Assembly (NCBI GenBank): GCA_025917655.1
Contig: CP084620.1
Coordinates: forward strand, 1,116,001 to 1,180,000
Source of the DNA: Chlorella sorokiniana
Lineage: Eukaryota > Chlorophyta > Trebouxiophyceae > Chlorellales > Chlorellaceae
Direction of reading: 5' to 3'
Length of the DNA stretch: 64,000 bases
Translations under genes and position numbers: made by a program
In this document: one piece after another, positions 4,227 through 45,200 of the stretch
How positions within the stretch are numbered: position 1 is the stretch's first letter
Layout of the letters: each line of letters opens with the position of its first letter
Notes under the pieces: model-generated
The model's input: the letters and a program-made list of their open reading frames with translations, nothing else
Told to the model about the DNA's origin: nothing
Databases searched by the model: none

Positions 4227-5585
4227 TCAGAGATCTCCTCCTCGGGAGCCAGCTATGAGTTGTGCCTTGATCACATGTATAATCTCAGCATCATGCATGT
4301 CGATAAGACGCTTGAAAGCAACTTGGTCACAGCACCGCCAGCGGCAGATCGGCCCCTCGCCCGCCTCTTGCTGAGATGTGCAGTCATCACCGCTTCCAGT
4401 CTTGCTCTCCGTCGACTGCAGATGGGTGGAGGCATCAGATGCATGGACCTGTCTGCACGCTTTCGTATGTCCCCCCCGCTGCAACAGGGACTGCCTCACA
4501 CTGTGCTCCACAGCACCAGCCGCCGCCTCACCATAGAGCCACTTGCCGCCCTCTCGCAGGAATCGGCTGCGCTCCACAAAGGTCTGTGTGTGCCAGCCCT
4601 GTGCCCGCTGCCCCAGCTGGCCCCTGTTCTTAAACCAGGCCTGCACGCATGGAGCACCCCTGGGGAGGTAAGGGCGGGACTGTGGCTCGCTGCCAGCCTG
4701 TCAAGAGCAAACACAACGCACCTGGAACGTGACAAAGCCCTCCTGCTCGTCCTTGCCCGGCTCCACCTCCAGCACTTTCAGCTTCTGCAGCAACCCACGG
4801 CAGGTGACGCAGTGCCGTGCCATACTATGTGATGCAAGCTACCGGAGCAATCAAGCGCTTGGCGGCCGAGCTCGCCTCAAAGCCTAGCTTGTCGATCGTC
4901 GCCTGCACGTCTGCCTTCAGTGTGGGCTTCCCCGCCTGAGCTGCCTCATCCGTCAACAGCGGGTTTAGCGGGTGGGTGGTGTCCACAATGTACTGCCATA
5001 GGCCCTGCACCGGCGGCGGGGACGGGTCCGATCAGCGCAGCTGCCGCACACATGAAGTTGTGTTGCACCTCTTTTGCCTGTCGTGGCAAGGCCACGACGT
5101 CTGCTGCACAAAGCTGAGGACTGGGAGAGCTTGCCTTGACGTAGCCACTATACCGCGAACGCATCAGCTGCTCCGGCGTGTCGGGCAGCCGCCCATCGTG
5201 GTACACTTGGCAGCAATCCTGCGACAGGCTGGCAGCAAGGCTGTTGGAGGCTTGGCACGCTAGTTTCCTGTTTGTGTCGCTGCTTGTTTCATGAAGGCTG
5301 CCCAATTCCATTTACCTTGTACTCAAAGTTGCTGCCGCATGGGCAAGCTTTCTGCTTGCTCAACTTCTTCTCGGACGGCTTGCCAAAACCGCCGCCAGCC
5401 TGCACTGCCACTTGACGCCGCCGCTGCGAAAGGTTGCAAGCTGCCGTGCTGGGTCGCCGGAGAAATGCTGCTGCTGCATGGCTGCATCGGTTCGCTGATT
5501 GGTTTGCCAGCATTCCATGCCTGCAAAATTTGCTGCCGCCTGTGGTGCACTGCGCGATGGCGCATATGATTGGCATCGCCTGCAT
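4227..5585 (-). CDS. YchJ/UPF0225-like SEC-C motif protein
   Basis: A homologue of bacterial YchJ-type proteins, which join a SEC-C zinc-binding motif to an NTF2-like fold; molecular role unknown. Exon 1 (5585-5316) starts at ATG, has a basic N-terminus that could be a targeting peptide, and ends with KACPCGSNFEYK. Exon 2 (5218-5135) supplies the second Cys pair and the hallmark CCQVYHDGRLPDTPEQLMRS, then RYSGYVK. Exon 3 begins at 5004 with GLWQYIVDTTHPLNP, matching the family's TTHP segment. The next exon has LKVLEVEPGKDEQEGFVTFQ. The last (4640-4227) has AWFKNRGQ and the family's ERSRF-x-x-E-x-x-x-WLYGE end, plus an extra tail of about 100 residues of no recognised kind. The intron between exons 2 and 3 appears to be of GC-AG type. 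Zinc binding by the C-x-C...CC set is inferred from the family. Confidence 0.8.
5005..5134 (-). other. GC-AG intron in the YchJ-like gene
   Basis: The exon encoding RYSGYVK ends AAG and is followed by GCAAGC. The next exon opens after GGTGCAG with GLWQYIVDTTHP. Joining the two keeps the conserved frame, and no GT donor lies at this joint. Confidence 0.6.
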
Positions 5586-6116
5586 GCTTGCAGCCCTGGT
5601 TCCCTATGGCCTCCACAAGCACGATGCCAAATTACAATGCCCCGCAAACAATACCGGGCACACTCAAATTTCATCAAGTGTCGTGTCCTGCGTGTCGAGC
5701 CCCGCCTGTGCACTATAAGCTAGCTCTCAAGTGCTGGGGCGGCTTTCTCGTGTGCATGCGTACTCAGGGAGTTCTTGTTCAGCATCTCCTTGCTCCGTCG
5801 CTGAAGTGCGTTACCCAGAAGCCGAAGGCCATGTCGCGCGCACTACCTGGTGAGGTTGCAGGATCTCTGGAGGCGCCATACTGTCCTGCAGGTCATGTTG
5901 ATTCCGGGTTTACGGCATACATCGACAGCACAGCGCCGGGACCTCCCGAGCGCCATCGCCTCTCCTCCACCGTGCACCACCTCCGCTGTTCGCTTCCCAT
6001 GCAGGCCTTCACAGTGCTACGTCTAGTTCGCGACTGTCCTTGCCAGCTAGGGCATGGAGCCGTGGATCATATGTGAAGCAGCAACTCCCACGCCGTTGTG
6101 CCTGCAGTTCTAGCAG
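5586..6116. other. Interval with probable 5' exons of the 6.1-kb gene
   Basis: It holds the upstream region of the minus-strand YchJ-like gene and probably the first exon or exons of the plus-strand orphan gene, because the first recognisable exon of that gene begins at a splice acceptor (TAGCAG, ending 6116). An ATG near 5831 opens a frame but shows no conserved content, so I do not call it. Confidence 0.35.
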
Positions 6117-7019
6117 AAAAAGAAGGGCGGCAGCGGGCGGAATGTGGGTAGCACGGGCGGCGGCGGCGGGGGCAGCAACAGCAGCCAGTCCCACCGCAAC
6201 ATGGAGGTGATCCGGGAGTCGCGGGAGCAGCAGCTGGCCGCCACCGACATGCTGGCCAAGCTGCTGCAGGCGGCCGAACCGGCGGCTGTGGCTCAGCAGT
6301 ACGTCAGCAGCTTGGATGAGGCTTTCTTTTGGTCTGCGAACACTTACCTCGCCATGGTGGGTGCACAGCATGCTTGTGTGTTTGAATCCTTCTCTAAAGG
6401 AAAACCTTTCGGGATTGGCGGGTTCTGCAGGGGCAAGGGGGCAGAAACAGCAATAAGACCTGCGAGCTCGGGACATGCGACTGCATGGTGCAGGATTGCC
6501 TCCGAGCTAGTTGATCTTTCCTCTTGCATCATATTTGCAGCTCATGCGATTGCGCCTATGTTTGTTTGTCTATGCAGGCCAAGAAGGAGGGCAACCAGGA
6601 GGTGGTGGCGAGGCTGGAGGGCGCCATCCGTGCAGCCTTTGAAGCCAAGCAAGCCACCCTGCGTCCAGAGATCCAGCTGCTCAACCGCCTGCTTGCGGCA
6701 GAGGGCGTGGAGCAGCAGCAGGAGGTGCGTGGAGGAGTGGCAGGGCGTGTCATCCGGGCGGCATGCCAATAATGCACCCCCACACCGCTCCCTCCATCGC
6801 CCGCTCCTCCTTACCGGTCTTCCGCAGATTCTTGAGGACTCTGCGGCAGCGGCAGCCACGGTGATGAATGATCGCTACTTCTTCGGTTTGCTGAGCCGGA
6901 TGAGGGAGGATGTGCAGCGGCAGACCCCCAGCGAGCAGCGCGCGCAGCTGCTGGACCGGCTGGAGGGCATCCAGCGGGCGGCCCAGGCGGCAGCGGCTGG
7001 TGGCCAGGCAGGAGCGTAG
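6117..7019 (+). CDS. Orphan alpha-helical protein, 5' end missing
   Basis: Three exons of a soluble, helix-rich protein that I do not recognise. The first visible exon starts after an acceptor with a lysine/glycine/serine-rich stretch, then RESREQQLAATDMLAKLLQA and SLDEAFFWSANTYLAM. The second has AKKEGNQEVVARLEGAIRAA and LRPEIQLLNRLLAAEG. The third has ATVMNDRYFFGLLSRMREDV and ends in an Ala/Gly-rich tail. Well-ordered amphipathic segments, frames that continue across clear GT-AG introns and a TGTAA 60 bases past the stop argue that the gene is real. The segment NDRYFFGLLSRM recalls conserved plastid proteins of unknown function, but I cannot name a family. A transit peptide, if any, would lie in the missing upstream exon. 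Confidence 0.6.
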   Translation, partial: KKKGGSGRNVGSTGGGGGGSNSSQSHRNMEVIRESREQQLAATDMLAKLLQAAEPAAVAQQYVSSLDEAFFWSANTYLAMVGAQHACVFESFSKGKPFGIGGFCRGKGAETAIRPASSGHATAWCRIASELVDLSSCIIFAAHAIAPMFVCLCRPRRRATRRWWRGWRAPSVQPLKPSKPPCVQRSSCSTACLRQRAWSSSRRCVEEWQGVSSGRHANNAPPHRSLHRPLLLTGLPQILEDSAAAAATVMNDRYFFGLLSRMREDVQRQTPSEQRAQLLDRLEGIQRAAQAAAAGGQAGA

Positions 7020-32935: not shown

Positions 32936-35900
32936 ATGGTGGGGCCGGCTCGCCCTGCTCACGGGGCCGAGGCGGATCAAGATCCTGGGATGGAAGGCCC
33001 TGAGGGTGTGTCAGCAATACTTGCAGCAGTTATAGACAACCGGGCTGGGGAGGTTGGGCTGGCTGTGCTCGACGCGGACGGCGGCGCCCTGCTGCTCAGT
33101 CAACATGTCGAGGCTACGAGAACCTTTGCTCGCACCCTGTGAGCATGCCAGGCTGCAACTTACAATTCATGCGGTAACTGCACATGTGACGAGCTTGAGC
33201 AGCCAGGCGAATGCTGCATGCAGGGCTCTGCTGTCGCAGCACGCCCCACACCGGCTGCTTGTGGTGGCAGAGGCGCAGGGCAGCGGGGTCAGTGAAGCCA
33301 CCGCTGTTCTGTATACCCAGGTGGGCGCTGAATCATGCTTCAACGCAGCTTGGGCATGCTGTCTTCAGTTGACTTCATGGTCAACTCTGCCGCCTGGCTT
33401 TGCGCAGGTGCCTTTACCTCGCAGCGCATGGGACGACAGCTCCGGCTTTGTGACGCTGACCATGTACGCCACGGCTGAGACGCGTGCAGGCCTGGAGGGC
33501 CGCATGCTGCAGTCAGCACCCAGCAACTACCTTGCCCATGCGGCAGCAGGGGCGCTGCTTCGGTGAGCTGCAGGCAGAGCAGGGGATATTTAAGAGGCCA
33601 GTTGTCGGGTGCTGGCTCATAAACACGTTAGTGCGCCTGCCTCTGCATTCCAACACCAATTTGCCAGGTATCTTGAGGAGGATGCTGCCAGTGGCCTGGT
33701 GCCCGTGGCAGGCAGCCTTGCAGTGCAAGAGCTGGGCAGCGACACGCACATGCACATCGATCAGGCCACTGCGGCAGCGCTGGAGCTCATCCAGCCCACC
33801 CGGATCGGCACCTGCTCGTCCAAGCTCAATGGCATGAGCCTGTTCAGGTGTGCACAGCGCTCACACTCCCAAACTCTCCGTGCTGGCTGCCTGGTTCTTA
33901 TCTTGCAGAAGCGCATCCGCCACCGCCGCTGCAGGGTGCTCAACAAGACCAAGACCAAGTGTGGTGCGCGCCTGCTGCGTGCAAGCCTGCTGCAGCCGCT
34001 GCGTGACATAACCACTCTGAGGCTGCGGTATGATGCGGTGGCGGAGCTTATGGAGGATGAAGGCCTGCGGTTCAATGTGTCCACCTGTCTGGCGGCGCTG
34101 CCCAAGGACCTGGACAAGTGCGGGAGCATCTCACCCCTGCAGGCCTGCTTTCCAGGACATCCCTGCAGACCAGGGAAGCTCAGCAGACACCCTCAGCCCC
34201 AACCAGCCAATGTGCGGTTGCTTGGCCCCCATGCAGGATGTGCGGCAGCCTCAGCCTGCGCCCGCCAAGAGCCAGGCAGGCATGCTGCGGCGCATCGCCG
34301 CCACCATCCAGTCCTTCATCCTGCTGCAAGAGGCCCTGGCGGTGCTGCCGCCGCTGGCGCAGGCGCTGGAGGGGGCGCGCTGCGAGCTGCTGCGCGCGGT
34401 GGGCGCCGCCTGCGGGCACGTCGCTTTTGACGAGCTGCAGCGTGAGGTGGACGCTGTGCTGGAGGAGGATGTGCGCTCAGCCAAGAACTCGTTCCTCAAC
34501 AGGCATGCCGGGAGGGGCGGGCTGTGCGCAGTTCGGTCTCAGGCAGAATTCTCCATGTGGCGGGTTGCGTGTGGGCCCAACAAGCGCACGCTGGCCACCC
34601 GCAGGACCCAGCAGTGCTTTGCCGTGCGGAGCGGCGTTGACGGCTTCCTGGACGTTGCACGCCAGACCTTCTGCCGTGTGACGGAGCAGGCAGGCCTGGG
34701 ATGGGGCATGCGTGCCCTGTGGAAGAGCTGGCCGCGCGGGCCTGGAGGCTGAGTTGGGACCCCCCGCCCGGCTGTGCACAGGTGCACGAGCTTGCCGACC
34801 AGCTGCGCCAGCAGCACAGCCTGCCCACCATGCGGGTTCACTATGCCGCCAAGCGCGGCTTCTACTTCAACCTGGGGCCTGCGGGCGGCGGCAGCAATGG
34901 GGGCAGGGGTCGCGGCGGTGGCGGTGAGAGGAAGCACCCGCGCCATCTGGAGCAGGGCTGCGAGGAGGATCCCAGCGAGCTGCAGCAAGCTGCCACCCCT
35001 GGGCGTGTGCAGGGTCAGGCTGGCGGCGGCAGCAAGGGCGGCAGGGGCCAGCAGCAGCGCCAGCAAAGGGTGCCCCCGGCTTCCTTGTGCTGCAGCACAC
35101 AAGCCGGGCGGCCCACGTCACTACCGCGGAGCTCAATGCACTCAACGCCCGCCTTCGGGATGCCAGCAACGACTGTATTGTGCTGACAGAGCAGGTGGGC
35201 TGCCAGGCCTTGCTGCCAAGCGGAAGCACCTGCTGGGCCTGGCGGGCTGCGGTACACAGCCGTTACAGGCTGGCGCTCCCCTGCCTCAGGCACTGGATGG
35301 CCTGTCTGCCAAGGTGGCCTCCGCCTACCTGCCCCTCCTGCGCCGCTTGCTGGACGGCGTGGCCCTGCTGGACATGCTGGCGGGCTTCAGCGCGGTGGCC
35401 GCCTACAGCGCACGGAGCTACGTGCGGCCGACACTGACGGAGGCCGGGCCGCTGGCGCTGGTGGAGGCGCGGCACCCGCTGCTGGAGTGCCTCGAGGGCG
35501 ACGGGGTGCAGCCAAACGACACGTACTTGGCGCTGCACAGCTGCTTCCACGTCATCACGGGTGCTGGCCTTGTGCGGGAGGCATTGGAAACGGCGTGGCA
35601 CTGGTTGGAGGGCTTGTGTCACCAACATAACACAGCAACCTGACACCCTCTGTTGTCCCCGGCGTCACCTGTACATGCGCAGGCCCCAACATGAGCGGCA
35701 AGTCCACGTACCTGCGCCAGGTGGCGCTGTGCGTGGTCATGGCCCAGGTCGGCTCCTTTGTGCCCGCCTCCTTCGCCTCGCTGGCGCCCCCGCGACCGCC
35801 TGCTGGCTCGCATGGGCTCCGCCGACAGCCTGGAAACCAACTCATCCTCCTTCATGGTTGAGATGCAGGTGAGTGTGTGGTTGTGTGGGTGGGTGGGATG

Positions 35901-36913
35901 GGGGTGGGGGTGGGGGGCGGAGGCATGAGTGCGGCTGCAGCTTGCACAAGCGAATGGTGCCTGTGGTATGTGTGTGTGTGGTGGGGCGGGAGGGGGCGGG
36001 GTGGACCTGCTCGGACTCGCATCTTCCAAAGAAGGCCCGTGACCTGGCGTTGTTCAGTGTAAAACGTGCTAGAGCCATGGCCTCCCTCCCTTGGCCGATG
36101 TTTCCCCCGCTGAGGGCGCCCCCACTGCCCCCGCTGCTGCAGGAGGTGGCCCACATCCTGGCCCACGCCACCCCCTGCAGCCTGGTGCTGATCGACGAGC
36201 TGGGGCGCGCCACCTCCACCGCCGACGGCACGGCGCTGGCCTGGGCGGTGGGCGAGGCGCTCATCGCGGCGGGGGCGCCCACCCTGTGCGCCACGCACTT
36301 TGGCCAGCTGGCGGAGCTTGCGGCGCTGTACCCCGAGGCCAAGGCCTGGCACTTTGACGTGGACGCCTCGCGCAGCCGCCTCGACTTCTCGTGGCGCCTG
36401 CGGGCGGGCAGCCTGGGGGAGGAGGTGGGGCACTACGGCCTGCTGCTGGCCCGCGCCGTGGGCTTCCCCACCGACGTGCTGGAGGCGGCGGAGGAGGTGG
36501 TGCAAGGTGGGCTGGGTGGCTCTTTCCACCATGAGGCCCGCATGCAGGCTGGTCAGCAGGAGCGACCAAATGCTGCCCAGCGCTACACAAACCGCTGTGC
36601 TCCTCACAGCGTCACAGTTGGGGCCAGCAAAGTGCTTGGGCATATCGTGCATCTGCCAACAGATTCCGCCCTGCCTGATGCAGCTCTGGACGAGAGTGAG
36701 GAGCAACGCGTGTGTGCGTATGACAGTGGCGACGCCGCCGAGCTGGCCGCCATCTACGACTGCATGCACAAGCTGGGGCTGGTGGCACAGAGCTTCGTCG
36801 GTGGGGGCAGCCAGGACCTGGCGGGCCTGCAGAAGCAGCTCAGGCAGCTCAGGAAAGAGGCCAGGGCAGCGCTGACCAATGCCGCAGGCCTGCCAAGCCT
36901 GCCAAAGGTGTGA
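32936..36913 (+). CDS. MSH4: Meiotic MutS homologue MSH4
   Basis: MSH4 pairs with MSH5 to stabilise recombination intermediates and promote crossovers in meiosis; it takes no part in mismatch repair. ATG 32936 precedes [20 protein letters not shown] and LSQHVE, the connector-type start of MSH4; the mismatch-reading domain I of MSH2/6 is absent, as expected. Core landmarks are [93 protein letters not shown], Walker [33 protein letters not shown], Walker [21 protein letters not shown] and [17 protein letters not shown]. The [10 protein letters not shown] segment favours MSH4 over MSH5. ATPase motifs are complete. A frame break near 35790, in a C run, separates the Walker A exon from the SADSLET segment and looks like a sequence error. 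The gene sits in tandem with CIAO1 and glucuronokinase. Confidence 0.88.
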
Positions 36914-37108: not shown

Positions 37109-38698
37109 ATGTCGGTGAGCGTCCACGCCGACGGAACTATCGTTTCTCGTGTTTTTTCAAGGATCGGACTGCTGGGAAATCCGAGTGACGGTTTTGAAGG
37201 CGCCTGCCTGAGCCTCAGCTTGGCGAACTTCCACGCAGAAGTGCGCCCGGCCGCACAACGCGGTGATTGATGCTGTTAGATCAGTGCACAATGATAAGAT
37301 CATGGGAGCCTCCCCAAGGAACCCAAGCCGTGAACGTGGCGGCGGCGATAGGTGCACGACGGCCACGCCCTCCTGTCTGCACTGGCCTGCTGCAGGTCTC
37401 GCTGACCCCTTCCCCCACCCTGCGTTTCCTGCCCAACCCCGAGTGCGATGCGCTGGAATTTGACAGCCTGGAGGCCTTTGGGCGCCACGTGCGCGGCTGC
37501 GGCTTCTACGGCGGCATCCGCCTCCTCCAAGCCATGTGCCGCACCTTCCTGGACCACTGCCTGCAGCGGGGCCTTGCGCTGCCGCCATCCGCTGGCCCCT
37601 TCACGCTGTCCTACACCACAAACATCCCTCGGCAGGTGGCCCGGCGCGCCTCCTCACTGGGCACGACGCTGCGAGATGCTGCTCATCAAGCCCGCCGTGC
37701 GGCCGCCACCCTGACCTGTTGCTCGCTGCTCATCGGGGCCTGCCTGCTGCACTCGCAGAGCGGCCTGAGCGGCTCGTCGGCCATCGCCTGCGCCGCGCTC
37801 AACTGCCTGCTGCGCCATTTCGGGCTGGAGGCGGCGGTGCCGGTGGCGGAGCGGCCGCGCCTGGTGCTGGCGGCGGAGCAGGCGCTGGGCATTGCGGCGG
37901 GGCTGCAGGACAGAGTGATCCAGGTGGCATCTTGAACGACTAGCGGTGCCAGCGTTGCTCCACATACGCAGTGTCCCGGCGAATAGCTGCCCGCCTGCAC
38001 AGTGCTCACCAGCTGGCTGGCATACCCGCCTGGCTGGCCGCCCCCAACTCCAGGTGTATGGCGGCCTGGTGGCCATGGACTTCAGCCAGCCCTCCCACGA
38101 GCGGTACGAGTCCCTGGACCCCTCGCTGCTGCCCCCGCTGTACCTCCTGTACCGCCCCGCCGCCGCCAGCGGCAAGGACAGCGGCGGGGTGCACTCGGAT
38201 GTGCGGCAGCGGTGGCTGGCTGGAGACGCCGCCGTCAGGTGGGCGCGGCTTGCCAGCCCAGCAGGAGCAGCAGCACAAGCCCTGGGCGCAGCCTGCCCGC
38301 TGCATGCCTGGGCAGCTGCAGCGCGCCCCAGATCCTATCCCCCTTCCCGGCTGCAGGCGGGCATGCAGCAGATTGCGGCGCTGGCGGGGCAGGGGGTGCA
38401 GGCGCTGCGGCAGCGCGACACGCAGCGCCTGGCCAGCCTCATGAGCGACAACTTCCGCCTGCGCCGCCGCATCTACGGCGACGATGTGGTGGGCGCAGCC
38501 AGCATCGGCCTGGCCGAGTGCGCAGCCTCGGTGGGAGCCGCGGCCAAGCTGACGGGCAGCGGCGGCGCCGTGGTAGCGCTGTGCCCGGGCGGCCCGCAGC
38601 AGGCGGATCGGCTGCGTGAGGCGTGCGCTGCGCGCGGTATCGCGTGTGAGGTGGTACGGGTGGGGCCGACACTGCACCCAGCCGGCTCGGCAGGCTGA
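37109..38698 (+). CDS. GLCAK: Glucuronokinase (GHMP kinase)
   Basis: A plant-type kinase that phosphorylates D-glucuronate at C1, feeding UDP-glucuronate through the myo-inositol oxygenation route used for wall sugars. Exon 1 (37109-37240) gives MSVSVHADGTIVSRVFSRIG then LLGNPSDGFEGACLSLSL; exon 2 (37396-37635) has GFYGGIRLLQAMCRTF and LSYTTNIPRQ; exon 3 (37759-37923) has SGLSGSSAIACAALNCLLRH, the GHMP phosphate-binding loop, and AAEQALGIAAGLQDRVIQ. Exon 4 (38054-38238) begins VYGGLVAMDFS and includes VHSDVRQRWLAGD. The last exon, from 38357, has LMSDNFRLRRRIYGDD and AKLTGSGGAVVALCPGG, the GHMP motif 3. The order and length match the Arabidopsis enzyme. No targeting peptide is seen, so the enzyme is probably cytosolic. 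The phase at the last joint is off by one, perhaps another lost base. AATAAA lies at 38737-38742. Confidence 0.92.
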
Positions 38699-38806: not shown

Positions 38807-40094
38807 TCAAGGGTGAGGAGCGGGGCATGCAGCCTCGGCCCGCGGCAGCCCCAGCCCCGCAGCGCTCCTCATCCCCCAGCAGCAGGTCCAGCGCCGCCAT
38901 CGCGTCCTGCCGCTCGGCGGCGGCGTCCAGCCCGGCGGCCAGGCGCGCAGCACGCGCCCACAGCTGGCGGAAGCGTCGGATGTTGTGGGCTGCTTCCCGC
39001 ACGGGGTCCTCGCGGCGTGGGAAGGTGTCGAAATAGATGGTGCCTGGGGGCAGGCGGGAAGGCGGGGTGTGCGTGTGTGCTGCGGGGCGGGGCGGCGGGG
39101 AGAGGGGGCGGGGCGGCGGGGCGCACCCCTCCCAACGGCCCTCATGCAAGCACGCGGCGCCCAGCTGCGTGGCAGCTCCGCGCCCAGCACCTCAGGCCCC
39201 CCCCGCCCCCGCCTGCATCGCCCGCCCCCACCCGTGTAGTTGACTCGGTGCAGCCAGCGCACGAGCTCCAGCGCTGCCGCCCCGCCCACCGAGGCCAGGG
39301 CCAGCCCGTCCTCAGCTCCCAGCCGCACCGCCGCATCGTTCAGGTGGAGGCCAAACAGGCTGTCGCCCGCCAGCGCCACCGACTGGGCCGGGTTCTCGCC
39401 AGCCAGCAGCATGTGGCCGGCGTCCAGCGTCAGCCCGAAGTTGGGGCGGCCCACCTGGCGCACCAGCAGCAGGGCGGCGCCGGTGGAGGGCACCAGCGAC
39501 CAGCGGGCCGCCTCGTCGGTGGCCTTCCACTCCAGCGACACGCGCACGCCGGGGGCAGGCGTCGGCGAGGGCGCGGTACGCCTGTACCGCCCGCTCCCAG
39601 GCCGCCCCGTAGTCCAACTCAAAAGCGTAGTTGTAGCCGTCGTGCTGGGGCCACACCACCAGGTCTGGCGCCCCCAGCGCCGCAGCCCAGCGGCAACCCC
39701 CCACCGCCAGCTCCAGCGCCCGGCGGCGCACGGCGGCGTGCGGGTGCGTGAAGGCGCCCGAGCCGTACTCGCTTTCGGGAAGCGCAGCGCCACCGCGGCA
39801 GCGCCCAGCCCCGCCGCCGCCAGCGCGCCGCGCAGCTGCTCGGGCGTGTGCCCCGCCGTGTGCTGAGGGTGGTTGAAGGCGACCAGGGACAGGCCAGGCA
39901 CCCGCGCCTGGCGCTGTATCCAGCCCAGGAGGGAGTCGGGGCCGTCGGAGGGGGCCGCCAGGTCGCGCCGCGCCCGCATGGAGTTGAGGCGGGAGGCAAA
40001 GCGGTGGGGGCACTCGAGCGGCATCGCCGGCACCCGCCCAGCCGCGCTGCTGCGGGCGGCCAAGCCGCATGCCGGCCCGCTGCCCTGCGTGGCC

Positions 40095-40132
<38 letters not shown>

Positions 40133-41575
40133 GCCGGCAGGGTCGGCGCAGCTGTCGCCGCCGCTTTCGCTGGCGCTGTCCTCGCCGCCGACGCCGCTCC
40201 CGCTGGGGCTGTCCTCGCCTCCGCCGCTGGCCGCCAGCTGATCCGTCTCTGTGCGGTGCGGCAGGCTGGGCACCGCGCCCATGCGAGTCACCGCCATGCC
40301 TCCCGCAGCGCTGGCAAAGCGCAGGCAGTCCTGCAGGGGCCGGCCCTCCACCAGCGCAACAGCAAAGGCAGCACGGAAGGCATCCCCCGCCGCGGTGGCG
40401 TCCACCAGCTGGGCCCCGCGGGTTGCAGGGCCGCCTGCCGCAGCAGGGTGCCGTCTGGCAGGGCCAGCAGGGCGCCACGCGGGCCCAGCGTGGCCAGCAC
40501 GCCGCGCGCGCCGCGCGCATGCAGCGCCGCCGCTGCCGCCGCCACCTGCGCGTCGCTGTCGACGGGCAGGCCGGTGAGGCGTGCCAGCTCAGACTCGTTG
40601 GGGCACAGGTAATCGCAGAGCTCCAGCAGGGCGTCGGGTATGGGTGTGTCCTCGCCGCCCGCGTCCTGACCACATGCCACAACGCAAGGCAGGGGACAGG
40701 TTGGGGTCACACCGGGAGAGGCTTCAGTGGCAGCACGCGCATGACCTTGCTGCTCCGCAAATGCGGCTATGGACGTGAGCAGCAAGCAGTGCTGGGCTTC
40801 GCGCACACGCCCCCCCCTTTCCCGGACCCACAGAAACGCACCAGCAGAACAGGGATGCCCGCAGCGCGCCGCCGCCGCCACCGCCTCATTCACGTGCTGC
40901 GGCACCTCGCGCTGCAACAGCACCGCCCCCGAACCCGCCACCAGCGCCGCCGCGGCAGGCGAGAGCTGCGGGAATGCCGAGTTGGCGCCTGGCACCACGA
41001 GGCTGGTGGCGCCGCCATCGGGCTGGAGCATGACCTGAAGCACGAGAAGGGAGGGGTTGGGAGGGTGTGGAAGTGGCAAACGTACGATGATGACTGGTTG
41101 GGCTGGAAGGCCGCCACTGAGCGACCACAGCAGGAGGTTTGCTGTAAATTGCAGCCGATGCAGCAGCTTGCACATAAATGTACGTACGGTCACCAAACGG
41201 GAAGGCAAAAAGGCCGCCACTCACGATGCCCTGGCCAGACGGCATCGCGACGCGGCCGCAGGCAGACACATCGACCCCTTCTGCCAGCAGCGCCGCCTCC
41301 ATCATCGCCGCATATGAGTCGTTGCCAAACTGCGTGACGAAGCGGCTGGCACGCCCGGTGCCCGCTGACAGGCGGGCAGCAGCGACGGCCTGGTTTGCAC
41401 CCTTGCCGCCCGCGGCGACCGCGGCCGATGGGGTGCGGGCCATGAGTGTCTCGCCAGCAGTGGGCAGCCGGTCCACGCCGATGATGATGTCGACGTTCAG
41501 GCTGCCAACAGTCAGAATGTGCGGCTTTGCTTCGGCAGGAGCCCTGCAATGAAACACGGGAGGCTCCTGCTGCAT
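38807..41575 (-). CDS. Ribokinase fused to a TIM-barrel sugar isomerase
   Basis: A two-domain protein. The first half is a PfkB-family ribokinase: ILTVGSLNVDIIIGVDRLPT, AAGGKGANQAVAAARL, FVTQFGNDSYAAMMEAALLA, LQREVPQHVNEAVAAA, DYLCPNESELARLTGLPV and the catalytic loop VDATAAGDAFRAAFAVAL, like the AAGD loop of E. coli RbsK. Without any stop the same frame runs on through an acidic, Ser/Gly-rich and poly-Ala linker (about 90 residues) into a xylose-isomerase-like TIM barrel: FASRLNSMRARRDLAAPSDG, GLSLVAFNHPQHTAGHTPEQ, GAFTHPHAAVRRRALELAV, VWPQHDGYNYAFELDY, VSLEWKATDEAARWSLVPST, NFGLTLDAGHMLLAGENPAQ, LFGLHLNDAAVRLGAEDGLA and IYFDTFPRREDPVREAAHNI. Likely metal ligands (Glu of SLEWK, Asp/His of DAGH, His of HLND) are present. 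Linked isomerisation and phosphorylation of a pentose or deoxysugar is inferred. Lost bases near 40415, 39775 and 39560 break the frame. The C-terminal end is uncertain. Confidence 0.82.
40096..40131 (-). repeat. (CTG)12 microsatellite encoding poly-Ala
   Basis: Twelve uninterrupted CTG units on the plus strand; on the coding strand they are read as GCA and give the poly-Ala part of the kinase-isomerase linker. Confidence 0.9.
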
Positions 41576-42242
41576 GGGAGGCGGCGCGGCGCCGGCGACA
41601 GCGGCGGACGAAGTTGTCTGGCGCCCATCGGCGTGTGCATTGGTCGAGGAGGCTCACCCAGCAACCGTCAAGCAATGGAAGAGCAGGCCCATCAGCCAAG
41701 CCGCAAACCGGGGCTTATGAATTAGTAAGCGCTTCATCCCTGCCCCCTCTGCTGAATTGAAGATGTTAGCTTACTGAAAATACATTGCTGATATCGCAAT
41801 CTCAGATTGTCTTGCTTTGGGGCAACACCGCCGCTTTCGAGCTGGAGTGAGGTGGAACTCATGGCCCTGCTCTTCTGGCGCAGGAGGTGAGGTAATCGAA
41901 GTGATCCATATTGCCATAAGGACATAGGAGGCTTGCCGGCGAGGTGCAGGGCAGCACCTGCGGTATGAACGAGTTTGGAGCGTTCGGCTGGTGAAGAGGT
42001 TTGGGCTTGCAGCTGGATTTATAGACAGGTGATGCGCAGCAGCTCGAGAAGCGCATGGATCGCGCCACGTTGCATGCCTCTCCACACCCCACCGGCTGCC
42101 CGCCTCACCGCCGGCGCTCAACGCTGCCGCCTTGCAGCCCAGATGGCCTCTGCGCTGCACGGCTCGCGCAGCGCGCGCGCGGCTCAACTCCAGCTTTGAG
42201 AACGGGCTGTCTGCGGGGCTGTCCAGCAACCCGTACAGCACC
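41576..42242. promoter_or_regulatory. Divergent upstream region, ribokinase fusion and PhoD
   Basis: About 670 bases between opposing start codons; the part from 41700 to 42000 is richer in A and T. It probably contains both promoters and 5' untranslated regions. A possible acceptor (TTTCATTGCAG) just inside the ribokinase start leaves open an upstream exon. No gene is recognised. Confidence 0.4.
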
Positions 42243-45200
42243 ATGGAGGTGGAGGTGCCGCTCTCCACGCCCGCCGCCGCCCCGCTGTCGCCCCAGGCCC
42301 CCGCCGAGCGGCGCCAGCTGCACCACACCATCCGCCTCGTGTCGGCCGCCGTCATCTTCACGCTGCTGCTGGCCACGATGGCCGCGCTGCTGGCCGCGGT
42401 GGTGGTGCGCTGCCGCCAGGAGGGCGGCCCCGGCTGCCTGATCCCCAAGTCGGCTGTGGCCCTGGACTGGGAGGCTCCTCGGCGCTGTGGCCCCCCGCAA
42501 GCTCGTCTCCCGCATCGCCTTTGGCAGCTGCAGCGCGTACGACGTCAGCCGCCAGGCCGTCTGGGAGCAGGTGGGGCCGTGAAGTGCGTGGTGCCTGTAG
42601 GGCAGGCGGTGCATGCAACCGCAACCCGTGCATCGGTGCATGCGCTGAGCGCCTGCGGTGCGTGCCACCCTAGCAGGGTGTCATCCCCAGTGAGCCCGAC
42701 ATGTTTGTGTGGCTGGGGGACATGTACTACGGAGATGAGCCGGTGAGAGGCTGCAAAGCGCGGGCAGCGCGGACTGCGAGCAAGCCCTTCTTACAGGCAA
42801 GGCAGCCCATGCGCTGGCCACCAGCGCCGCTGGTGTCCCCCCCCCCCCGCAGGAGTTCAACTGCAACCCGTCCAACGCCAACGCGTCGGCCTGCCGCTGC
42901 GAGTCCACCTGGATGAAGCAGCCGCCCTACATGTGCGAGGCAGGGGAGCTGGACAACGCTCGGGAGAAGATGGTGGCACAGGTGTGGGGGCGCTGTGGCT
43001 CTTGGCGGCCGAGCCATGTCGCTTGATCACACACCCTGCTGTTTGCTTGATGCTTTGCCTGCAGAGGGAGCAAGCTTGCAGGACTGTGTGCACGCAAGGC
43101 AGCTGCCGCTCTGCACCAAGAGCCAGATCTCCTTCACATGACGCAGGTGCACCAGCTGGGCTACCGGGCCTTCCTGCAGTACAGCTGTCCCGGCTACGAC
43201 TCGAGCGGGGCCATGGTACCGCCGGGCGACAACCTGGACGCCTGCCCCCGTCCCATACTGGGCGTGTACGAGTGAGCGGGCGCTCTGTGCGACACGCTGT
43301 GGCGGCAGGAGCGGCCCACATGGGGTGGCAAGTGCCTGCTGCTCTTCTTCCTGCATAAAGCTCCCAGCGGTAGGCCATTGGACCACTGACCTGTCCTCCT
43401 CCGCCTGCCACCGCAGCGACCACGATTACGGCGTGAACAACTTCAATCGCCGCCTGCCGCAGAAGCACCTGTTCAAGCAGGTGCATGCACTTCCCAGCTG
43501 CCCGGCCTGCCGTGGCCGCCACAGCTGGCACTGCAGCTGGCCGGGCTCCGCCGATTTGCCCATACGAGCAGCATGCGGCCTGCCCCCAGCCCGCCCCTGC
43601 CCCGCCCTGCGCAGGTGTATCTTGACGCGCTGGGAGTGGCCGCCACCAGCCCGCGCCGTGCCTCTCACCAGGGCATCAACTGGGCGTACCGCCTGAACCC
43701 GGGCACCCGCCAGGCCGTGGACCTGGTACTGCTGGATGGGCGGTACGAGCGGGCGCCGCTGCCCTGCGAAGTCAGGGGCGACTGGTGGGTGGGGCACGCG
43801 CGGTACACCAGGCACACGCAGGGCTGCCCACCGACCGAGCTGCAGCTTCCCCCTCGGCTCAGCCCCATAGCTGAGCGTCCGATTGTGCTTTATTGAAATG
43901 GTGCCGGGCGGCCAGGTGTCCAGCCGTGTGGGGTGCTCTGCCCTCCTGCCATCCTCCCCAGGTGCCGCAACGTGGTGTTCAAGGACAGCCAGCACCCCAG
44001 CCAGGGCTGGTGCCACGACTTCCTGCACAGCGGCGGCGCCACCGGGCACGACGGCTCCTGCTGCAAAGCCGACGGCCAGATCTACTACGGCTGGTGCAAG
44101 CAGGTGCGGCGCAGCTGCATGGCAGGCAGGCCTGCCCTCCCGCTGGGGACCTGCCGCGGCCGCAGCCTGGGCCGGTGCTGCCGGCCGATCTGCCTGTGGG
44201 AGTCCCGGCAAGCGTGCTGTCCCTGCCCACCTGCTGTGATGCGCAGGAGGGCAGCCGAGCAGACCCCCTGTGGGAGGTGGCCTGCAACGCCTCCTCCCCG
44301 CTGTTTGGCAGCCAGGCCCTGGTGGTGGCGGGCGGCAGGTGGGGCTGGGCGCCGGCGCCCGATGCCTTGCTGCCGCCCAGGGCTGAGCAGCGTCCAGCGG
44401 GCCGAGCCGCTGCAGGCCAGCCCTGGGCCAGTGCTTTTCCGACCATCTTGCTCCGTTGCCGCCTGCCCCTGCGGCCTGCAGGCTGCAGCCGCGGGATGTG
44501 ACGCGCGGCGCGGGCGAAGCCGAGGAGGACAGCAGTTTCTGCGAGGTGCTGGGGCCGCAGCAGCGCGCCTGGCTGGACCGGGTGCTCTCCGCCTCCACCG
44601 CCCCCGTCAAGCTCATCGCCAGCGGTTCGGTGGTGTTCGGCAGCAGCGGGCTGGGCAACAACAGCCAGGAGAACAGCTGGCAGGGCTACTGCTCGGGTGG
44701 GCAGCGGTGCACCGTGTTGGGCTGCAAGCGGGCTGATGCTGTGACCTGTGACTTGTTCCTCTGCTGGGCAGGGCTTTGGTCATTCCTGTGTGCCGCGACT
44801 GCCCTTGCATGCTGAATCACCCAGCCCACACACACACGCGCGCCCTCGCCGCTGCCGCAGGCGACGACTGGGACTGCTACCGCCCCGCTCAGCTGGCGCT
44901 GCTGGCCACGCTGCAGCGGCACGCGGCGCGGCATGGCGGCTGCTGGATCGTGCTCACCGGCGACTACCACTACTCTGACGTGCGCATGGCGCGCCCGGCA
45001 CCGGCCAGCCCTACTCCCAAGCGTACGCCACCGCCAACTGGACCACGCCACTGTATCAGGCAGGCAGACAGCTCCGAGGGGCCTTGGCCGCACTGGGTGG
45101 CAGCACAGCAGCTCGCGCTCGATGCGAATGCGTGGCCTGCCTGCTGTCGGCACACGTGGACACTGGCACACCGCTGCTTGTGCCCCCCCCTCCCCTTCCT

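Follow-up and report, generated by a model that had tools for sequence, protein, structure and literature searches.

Does a locus of the alga Chlorella sorokiniana encode a ribokinase and a TIM-barrel sugar isomerase on one polypeptide, and if so, which sugar would such a chain handle and where did its two parts come from? We addressed this in a window of 64,000 nucleotides (C4:1116001-1180000 in an assembly of 38.8 Mb and 15 contigs), to which all positions below refer unless a contig is named.

Structure of the locus

On the minus strand, one open frame (40588..38807) takes in the catalytic loop of the kinase (VDATAAGDAF), crosses an acidic linker with a poly-Ala tract and reaches FASRLNSMRARRDL, and the claim of an earlier note that neither a stop nor an intron interrupts the path from this loop into the first barrel motif holds, as does its description of the linker. 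The open frame carries only the final part of the kinase, the remainder lying in another frame, and part of the barrel, the middle of which again lies in a different frame. Joining the pieces over three introns and four frame breaks yielded a composite protein of 717 residues (Table 1), in which PfkB (PF00294) matched residues 19-318 (E = 1.1e-51, 176.4 bits vs. a cut-off of 25.8) and AP_endonuc_2 (PF01261) matched residues 452-687 (E = 4.9e-21, 76 bits vs. a gathering score of 31.1). Both matches are significant on one composite, in support of the proposed shared polypeptide, and the sequence predicts one transcript across both domains. The barrel piece is present in a single copy in the assembly, and an exon-by-exon search with PF01261 at E 0.001 returned the barrel of this gene as the sole match. 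We consider, with a probability of roughly 0.6, that one gene occupies the locus, that it belongs to a photosynthetic, green-lineage-like eukaryote and that it encodes a bifunctional sugar enzyme composed of kinase, linker and barrel.

Table 1. Features of the fusion gene in the window, and frame breaks in control genes elsewhere in the assembly
Feature	Position	Strand	Evidence or remark
Possible extra first exon	41658..41737	-	ATG 41737, donor GTGAGC at 41657, acceptor before 41543; from sequence alone
Alternative gene start	ATG 41575	-	vs. ATG 41737 of the possible extra exon
Kinase exon, N-terminal PfkB part (GSLNVD, GGKGANQ)	41225..41575	-	PfkB 1.3e-12
Intron GTGAGT...TTCAG	41035..41224	-	joins GQGI to VMLQPDG, as in Arabidopsis ribokinase
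Kinase exon 3, with frame break	40842..41034	-	6ilr alignment and intron phase
Intron GTGCGT...GTCAG	40666..40841	-	
Kinase C-terminal part, loop VDATAAGDAF	40241..40665	-	frame break at G/C run 40417-40411
Linker, 73 residues, acidic Ser/Gly part then 11 GCA-coded alanines	40022..40240	-	stop-free in three frames
TIM barrel, first and main part	39232..40021	-	frame breaks at C runs, approximately 39779-39777, and 39555-39551
Likely metal ligands of the barrel, in VSLEWK, LTLDAGH, LHLND	within 39232..40021	-	
Intron GTGGGG...CCCAG	39044..39231	-	joins NYTG to TIYFDTFP, as in relatives
Last barrel exon (TIYFDTFPRREDP...LLLG)	38869..39043	-	TGA 38871-38869 in another frame
Frame breaks in control genes	C3:1270967, C3:3153835, C3:2702270-2702288, C5:2386479, C8:1777355		three of five on C3

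Several further features were seen around the gene and elsewhere in the assembly. A convergent GHMP kinase gene (37267-38698, plus strand; PF00288 and PF08544), by eye glucuronokinase-like, leaves about 170 bp between its own end and that of the fusion gene. The same strand holds a PhoD-like phosphatase piece (44387-44815; E = 1.1e-4, below the gathering score) and, at 35873-36913, what we take by eye to be the end of a MutS-type ATPase (...ATHF). RuBisCO small-subunit matches lie at about 492 kb on contig C7 and are probably nuclear; like the spliced genes and the grouping of the kinase with a plant enzyme, they are in keeping with a green alga.

Frame breaks in the assembled gene

The kinase and the barrel of the assembled gene are each interrupted by two single-base frame breaks, which makes at least four in all, every one of them in a G/C run. 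The first, in the G run 40860-40858 of kinase exon 3, is a surplus base, as judged from homology (RC|IPVLLDAGGED) and the phase of the next intron, and the second immediately precedes the catalytic loop. A fifth break is probable, by eye, at the G run 38877-38873 at the 3′ end, because the frame there overruns the point at which relatives end and at which a TGA sits in another frame (Table 1).

These breaks could be real mutations in a former fusion that is now decaying, which we regard as unlikely, though it is the alternative that we take most seriously. We compared their density with that in 190 stretches of the same assembly matching HSP70, TCP1 and kinesin (57, 55 and 78, respectively), counting a break wherever paired stretches at most 17 bases apart matched consecutive or nearly consecutive profile positions in different frames. 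The fusion gene has four or more breaks over some 2.1 kb of coding sequence, against five in 33.0 kb of conserved genes, a length that includes some intron read-through; its density of breaks is roughly twelvefold higher. Loss of the gene would moreover be tolerated given a second, stand-alone ribokinase on contig C11. Conversely, every break falls in a G or C run of 3 to 5, the composite is free of in-frame stops through both domains, catalytic residues are retained and splice sites are intact. Breaks also occur in conserved genes of the assembly (one in HSP70, four in kinesins and none in TCP1), which suggests indel errors in the assembly, and the C11 ribokinase itself has, by eye, an apparent frame change inside its last exon. 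A Pfam search of ten neighbouring reading frames found too few domains for frame breaks to be counted. Sequencing or assembly error is the likelier source of the breaks, given their confinement to G/C runs, the absence of in-frame stops through both domains and the intact active sites. The earlier observation of a fusion was correct as to domains, their order and the absent stop, and it had missed the frame breaks, which leave the gene unreadable as assembled. Its view that catalytic residues are kept in both domains is borne out by alignment, but an assembled gene with at least four breaks gives no basis for its conclusion that both should be active.

Relatives and active site of the barrel

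Among solved structures, the barrel was closest to 3ktc (E = 8e-33, positions 34-316), followed by D-xylose isomerases (from E = 3e-13) and then L-rhamnose isomerases, whereas matches to epimerases were weaker. Seven residues (E166, K168, D202, H205, H228, N230 and D271) are identical in 88 of 88 aligned barrels, the alga included; five of them (E166, K168, H205, N230 and D271) match the residue of xylose isomerase at the same position, and D202 and H228 replace Glu and Asp. We presume that these aligned residues include the metal ligands. The composite scored 63.9 bits against the D-xylose isomerase model TIGR02631 (xylA_Arthro), under the curated cut-off of 447, and was not listed at E 1e-6 for the L-rhamnose isomerase model TIGR02635 (cut-off 531.35), to which five bacterial relatives of the barrel scored 45-86 bits. 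Because the equivalog scores are far under the cut-offs, the barrel group has no assigned function in NCBIfam. The sequence places the barrel in an unassigned branch close to D-xylose and L-rhamnose isomerase, as a putative metal-dependent sugar isomerase.

The superfamily is functionally mixed and epimerases gave weaker matches, so that the barrel, while sharing a chain with the kinase, might instead be an epimerase or act on the sugar phosphate after the kinase. It is known that 3-epimerases carry Glu at the position of the last ligand, whereas all 88 barrels have Asp there (D271), aligned with the Asp of xylose isomerase; K168 is likewise invariant and aligns with the xylose isomerase Lys. 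Together with the ranking of D-xylose and then L-rhamnose isomerases as the best solved relatives after 3ktc, this makes an epimerase or a sugar-phosphate enzyme improbable, and we retain the assignment as an isomerase of free sugars.

Matches to the barrel were found in 118 plasmid records, all below 60% identity, and a scan of genome contigs gave at least 527 relatives; we used the best 80 of these. Relatives at 44-46% identity among these best 80 came from four Trueperaceae, a MAG titled Bacteroidales, Thermomicrobiales and a Chloroflexi MAG; a separate scan of viral contigs found none. In the barrel tree, the alga stands at the base on a long branch, beside rows from Thermomicrobiota, Chloroflexota and Trueperaceae, and since the branch is long and its basal position lacks resolution, no donor can be named.

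The linker between the domains

The linker lacks a stop in all three frames, so that no single-base error within it could mask a stop of the kinase. Of 20,000 shuffled copies, 48% retained the one open frame and 9% had all three open, and the openness of the linker is by itself weak evidence, compatible with chance. Over its full length, GC content by codon position is flat (0.78/0.81/0.77); with the 11-codon GCA run removed post hoc it is 0.74/0.77/0.90, compared to approximately 0.80/0.57/0.84 in the exons, which as support for coding is neutral to mildly favourable.

These figures bear on the possibility that the locus consists of two head-to-tail genes in GC-rich DNA with a frame open by chance, the barrel being translated from its own ATG past the linker (MPLECPHRF). 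That ATG is located near the start of bacterial barrels, the bacterial relatives are separate genes, and both the flat codon-position GC of the whole linker and the 48% of shuffles with an open frame would be in keeping with it. However, with no stop in any frame ahead of the barrel the kinase would be endless, and only about 220 bp would have to fit a 3′ end, a promoter and a 5′ end. AATAAA and TGTAA are absent from the minus strand over 41760-38700, although they are equally absent at the true end of the gene. Two separate genes are distinctly improbable. What carries the case for a fusion is the absence of a stop, which is a fact, together with the pairing of the corresponding genes in bacteria.

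Bacterial neighbourhoods of the barrel

Using the algal kinase as query (phmmer, E <= 1e-5), we identified a ribokinase-like gene in the retrieved DNA around the barrel at 81 of 87 bacterial loci, a set dominated by rhizobia and hence not independent, made up of 7 plasmid records opened of the 118 and of 80 contig loci (the best 80 of at least 527). At the six remaining loci the retrieved DNA stops 0.2-4.8 kb beyond the barrel; at many rhizobial loci the kinase begins 4 to 4.6 kb beyond it. None of 20 control stretches of 19 kb, drawn from 8 bacterial genomes (Acidisoma, the phylum of locus L025) rather than from rhizobia, contained a ribokinase-like gene. All seven annotated plasmid loci have a ribokinase or PfkB gene nearby, together with an ABC or MFS transporter and an RpiR or SIS-domain gene. 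Six of them show the run barrel, substrate-binding protein, ATPase, permease, RpiR regulator and then kinase, and the seventh, from Pantoea, has a divergent ribokinase with a SIS-domain gene and an MFS transporter.

The order of the two genes varies. Among 12 loci picked for a kinase frame within 264 bp, the kinase lies directly downstream of the barrel in 11, and at ten loci it is divergent and about 1 kb away. The algal order was seen only on the Allorhizobium plasmid pAtS4e (L008), where rbsK lies about 100 bp before the barrel: an RbsD gene and a ribokinase scoring above the cut-off of TIGR02152 directly precede it (5034-6426), and the usual kinase also occurs further on. Barrel and kinase were fused in one frame at none of the 87 loci. 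No kinase was found in the frame of the barrel at four loci fetched from 400 genomes of one phylum, which among the matches listed were frames of 680, 717 and 772 amino acids and the best match, of 541 amino acids (the 873-amino-acid frame of G004, a weak match, is outside these four); at one locus (L128, G300:C45:12500-17500) the kinase follows the barrel in another frame, adjacent but unfused. Domains that are always separate genes in relatives had been named earlier as a sign against a fusion: they are separate in 87 of 87 bacterial loci, but they are mostly neighbours there. This pairing is a Rosetta-stone link between barrel and ribokinase and the strongest new evidence on the locus.

Family and origin of the kinase

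The closest solved relative of the kinase is Arabidopsis RBSK (PDB 6ilr; 230.6 bits, residues 18-321). In the alignment, the residues at E. coli positions 14, 16, 42, 43, 46, 143 and 255 are all retained, including the GGKGANQ motif and the catalytic Asp loop (G42, K43, N46 and D255 of E. coli); we take these positions to form the sugar and catalytic sites of E. coli ribokinase. Against the bacterial D-ribokinase equivalog TIGR02152, the kinase scored 223.1 bits, under the curated cut-off of 299.65. The second ribokinase, stand-alone and of plant type, lies at C11:1925400-1927480 (L099), which rules out that the fused kinase is the only ribokinase of the cell. In trees with one plant sequence and few reference ribokinases, the fused kinase grouped with Arabidopsis ribokinase (100/99 in the first tree) and was sister to the pair of Arabidopsis and C11 ribokinases (100/98), the latter two being closer to each other (97/96).

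The fused kinase has Gly at E. coli position 98, presumably near the sugar; E. coli, Arabidopsis and the C11 ribokinase carry Ala there, and each of the six aligned operon kinases carries Gly or Ser. Since the C11 gene already supplies a plant-type ribokinase, the fused copy may act on a different sugar from ordinary ribokinase; the Gly at position 98 is a hint in the same direction. As to the ordinary enzyme, passages of one paper describe plant ribokinase as plastid-located and as recycling ribose from nucleotides (PMC12589546).

The wholesale take-over of a ready-made bacterial operon pair that was then fused is very improbable and is rejected on the kinase trees: the same two kinds of enzyme adjoin in bacteria, once in the algal order, but the trees, albeit with few references, put the kinase with Arabidopsis ribokinase (100/99 and 100/98) and apart from the operon kinases, and directly adjacent bacterial pairs are in the opposite order. 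Instead, a ribokinase paralogue of the green lineage was probably joined to a bacterial-type isomerase, rebuilding a known partnership.

Proposed function and significance

In the bifunctional enzyme that we propose, the barrel would catalyse a metal-assisted aldose-ketose interconversion of a free sugar, whose product would then be trapped as a phosphate by the kinase domain on the same chain. The flexible acidic, poly-Ala linker would provide proximity rather than a fixed tunnel. The phosphate would enter the pentose phosphate pathway or glycolysis directly; that it is a central metabolite is suggested by the annotated runs, six of seven of which hold only uptake genes and a regulator between barrel and kinase. 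Pentoses are the likeliest sugars, a choice that we offer with considerable doubt as the least secure part of our reading, and they could be handled by either of two routes: from D-ribulose to D-ribose and on to ribose 5-phosphate, or from an aldose to ribulose or xylulose and on to the corresponding 5-phosphate. The hand-over from isomerase to kinase suggested by the earlier note is still the best reading and agrees with the bacterial neighbourhoods, while it continues to rest on inference. As a tentative account, held at well under even odds, a eukaryote would have duplicated its own ribokinase, acquired a bacterial-type barrel and built from the two a covalent two-step enzyme, capturing a free pentose beyond the reach of ordinary ribokinase.

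The partner families are already known; the pairing of the domains is real, makes good sense functionally and, as far as the open-licence literature shows, undescribed, in that we found there neither a described fusion or operon nor, as had been supposed, an algal enzyme of this layout. Should the fusion be real, an unassigned isomerase group that lies near ribokinase in many bacteria would be tied to a kinase in a single chain, and the fusion would define the activity of that group; expressing one protein would allow a direct test of its substrate. The fusion would also illustrate clearly how a eukaryote can reassemble, with a kinase of its own, a partnership that bacteria keep as two genes, and it would suggest an algal pentose salvage step beside ordinary ribose recycling.

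Comparison with known systems

Comparison with 3ktc, a putative sugar isomerase deposited as 'xylose isomerase', shows a match over nearly the full length of the barrel and the same aligned metal-site residues, except for His228, which is Asp in 3ktc; the 3ktc chain, however, has 333 residues and no kinase. In the open-licence literature a single paper was found to mention 3ktc, and its title concerns a different topic. With D-xylose isomerase and the L-rhamnose isomerase of Pseudomonas, the barrel has the fold family in common, and Glu, His, Asp and Lys align with those of xylose isomerase, whereas its scores are far below the curated cut-offs. The kinase belongs to the same clade as Arabidopsis RBSK and has the seven checked E. 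coli positions in common with it, but RBSK is stand-alone whereas the fusion kinase carries a second domain, and the C11 copy is nearer to RBSK. The bacterial pairs place the same two kinds of enzyme near each other, but as separate genes, with the kinase mostly after the barrel or divergent from it and from another branch of its family.
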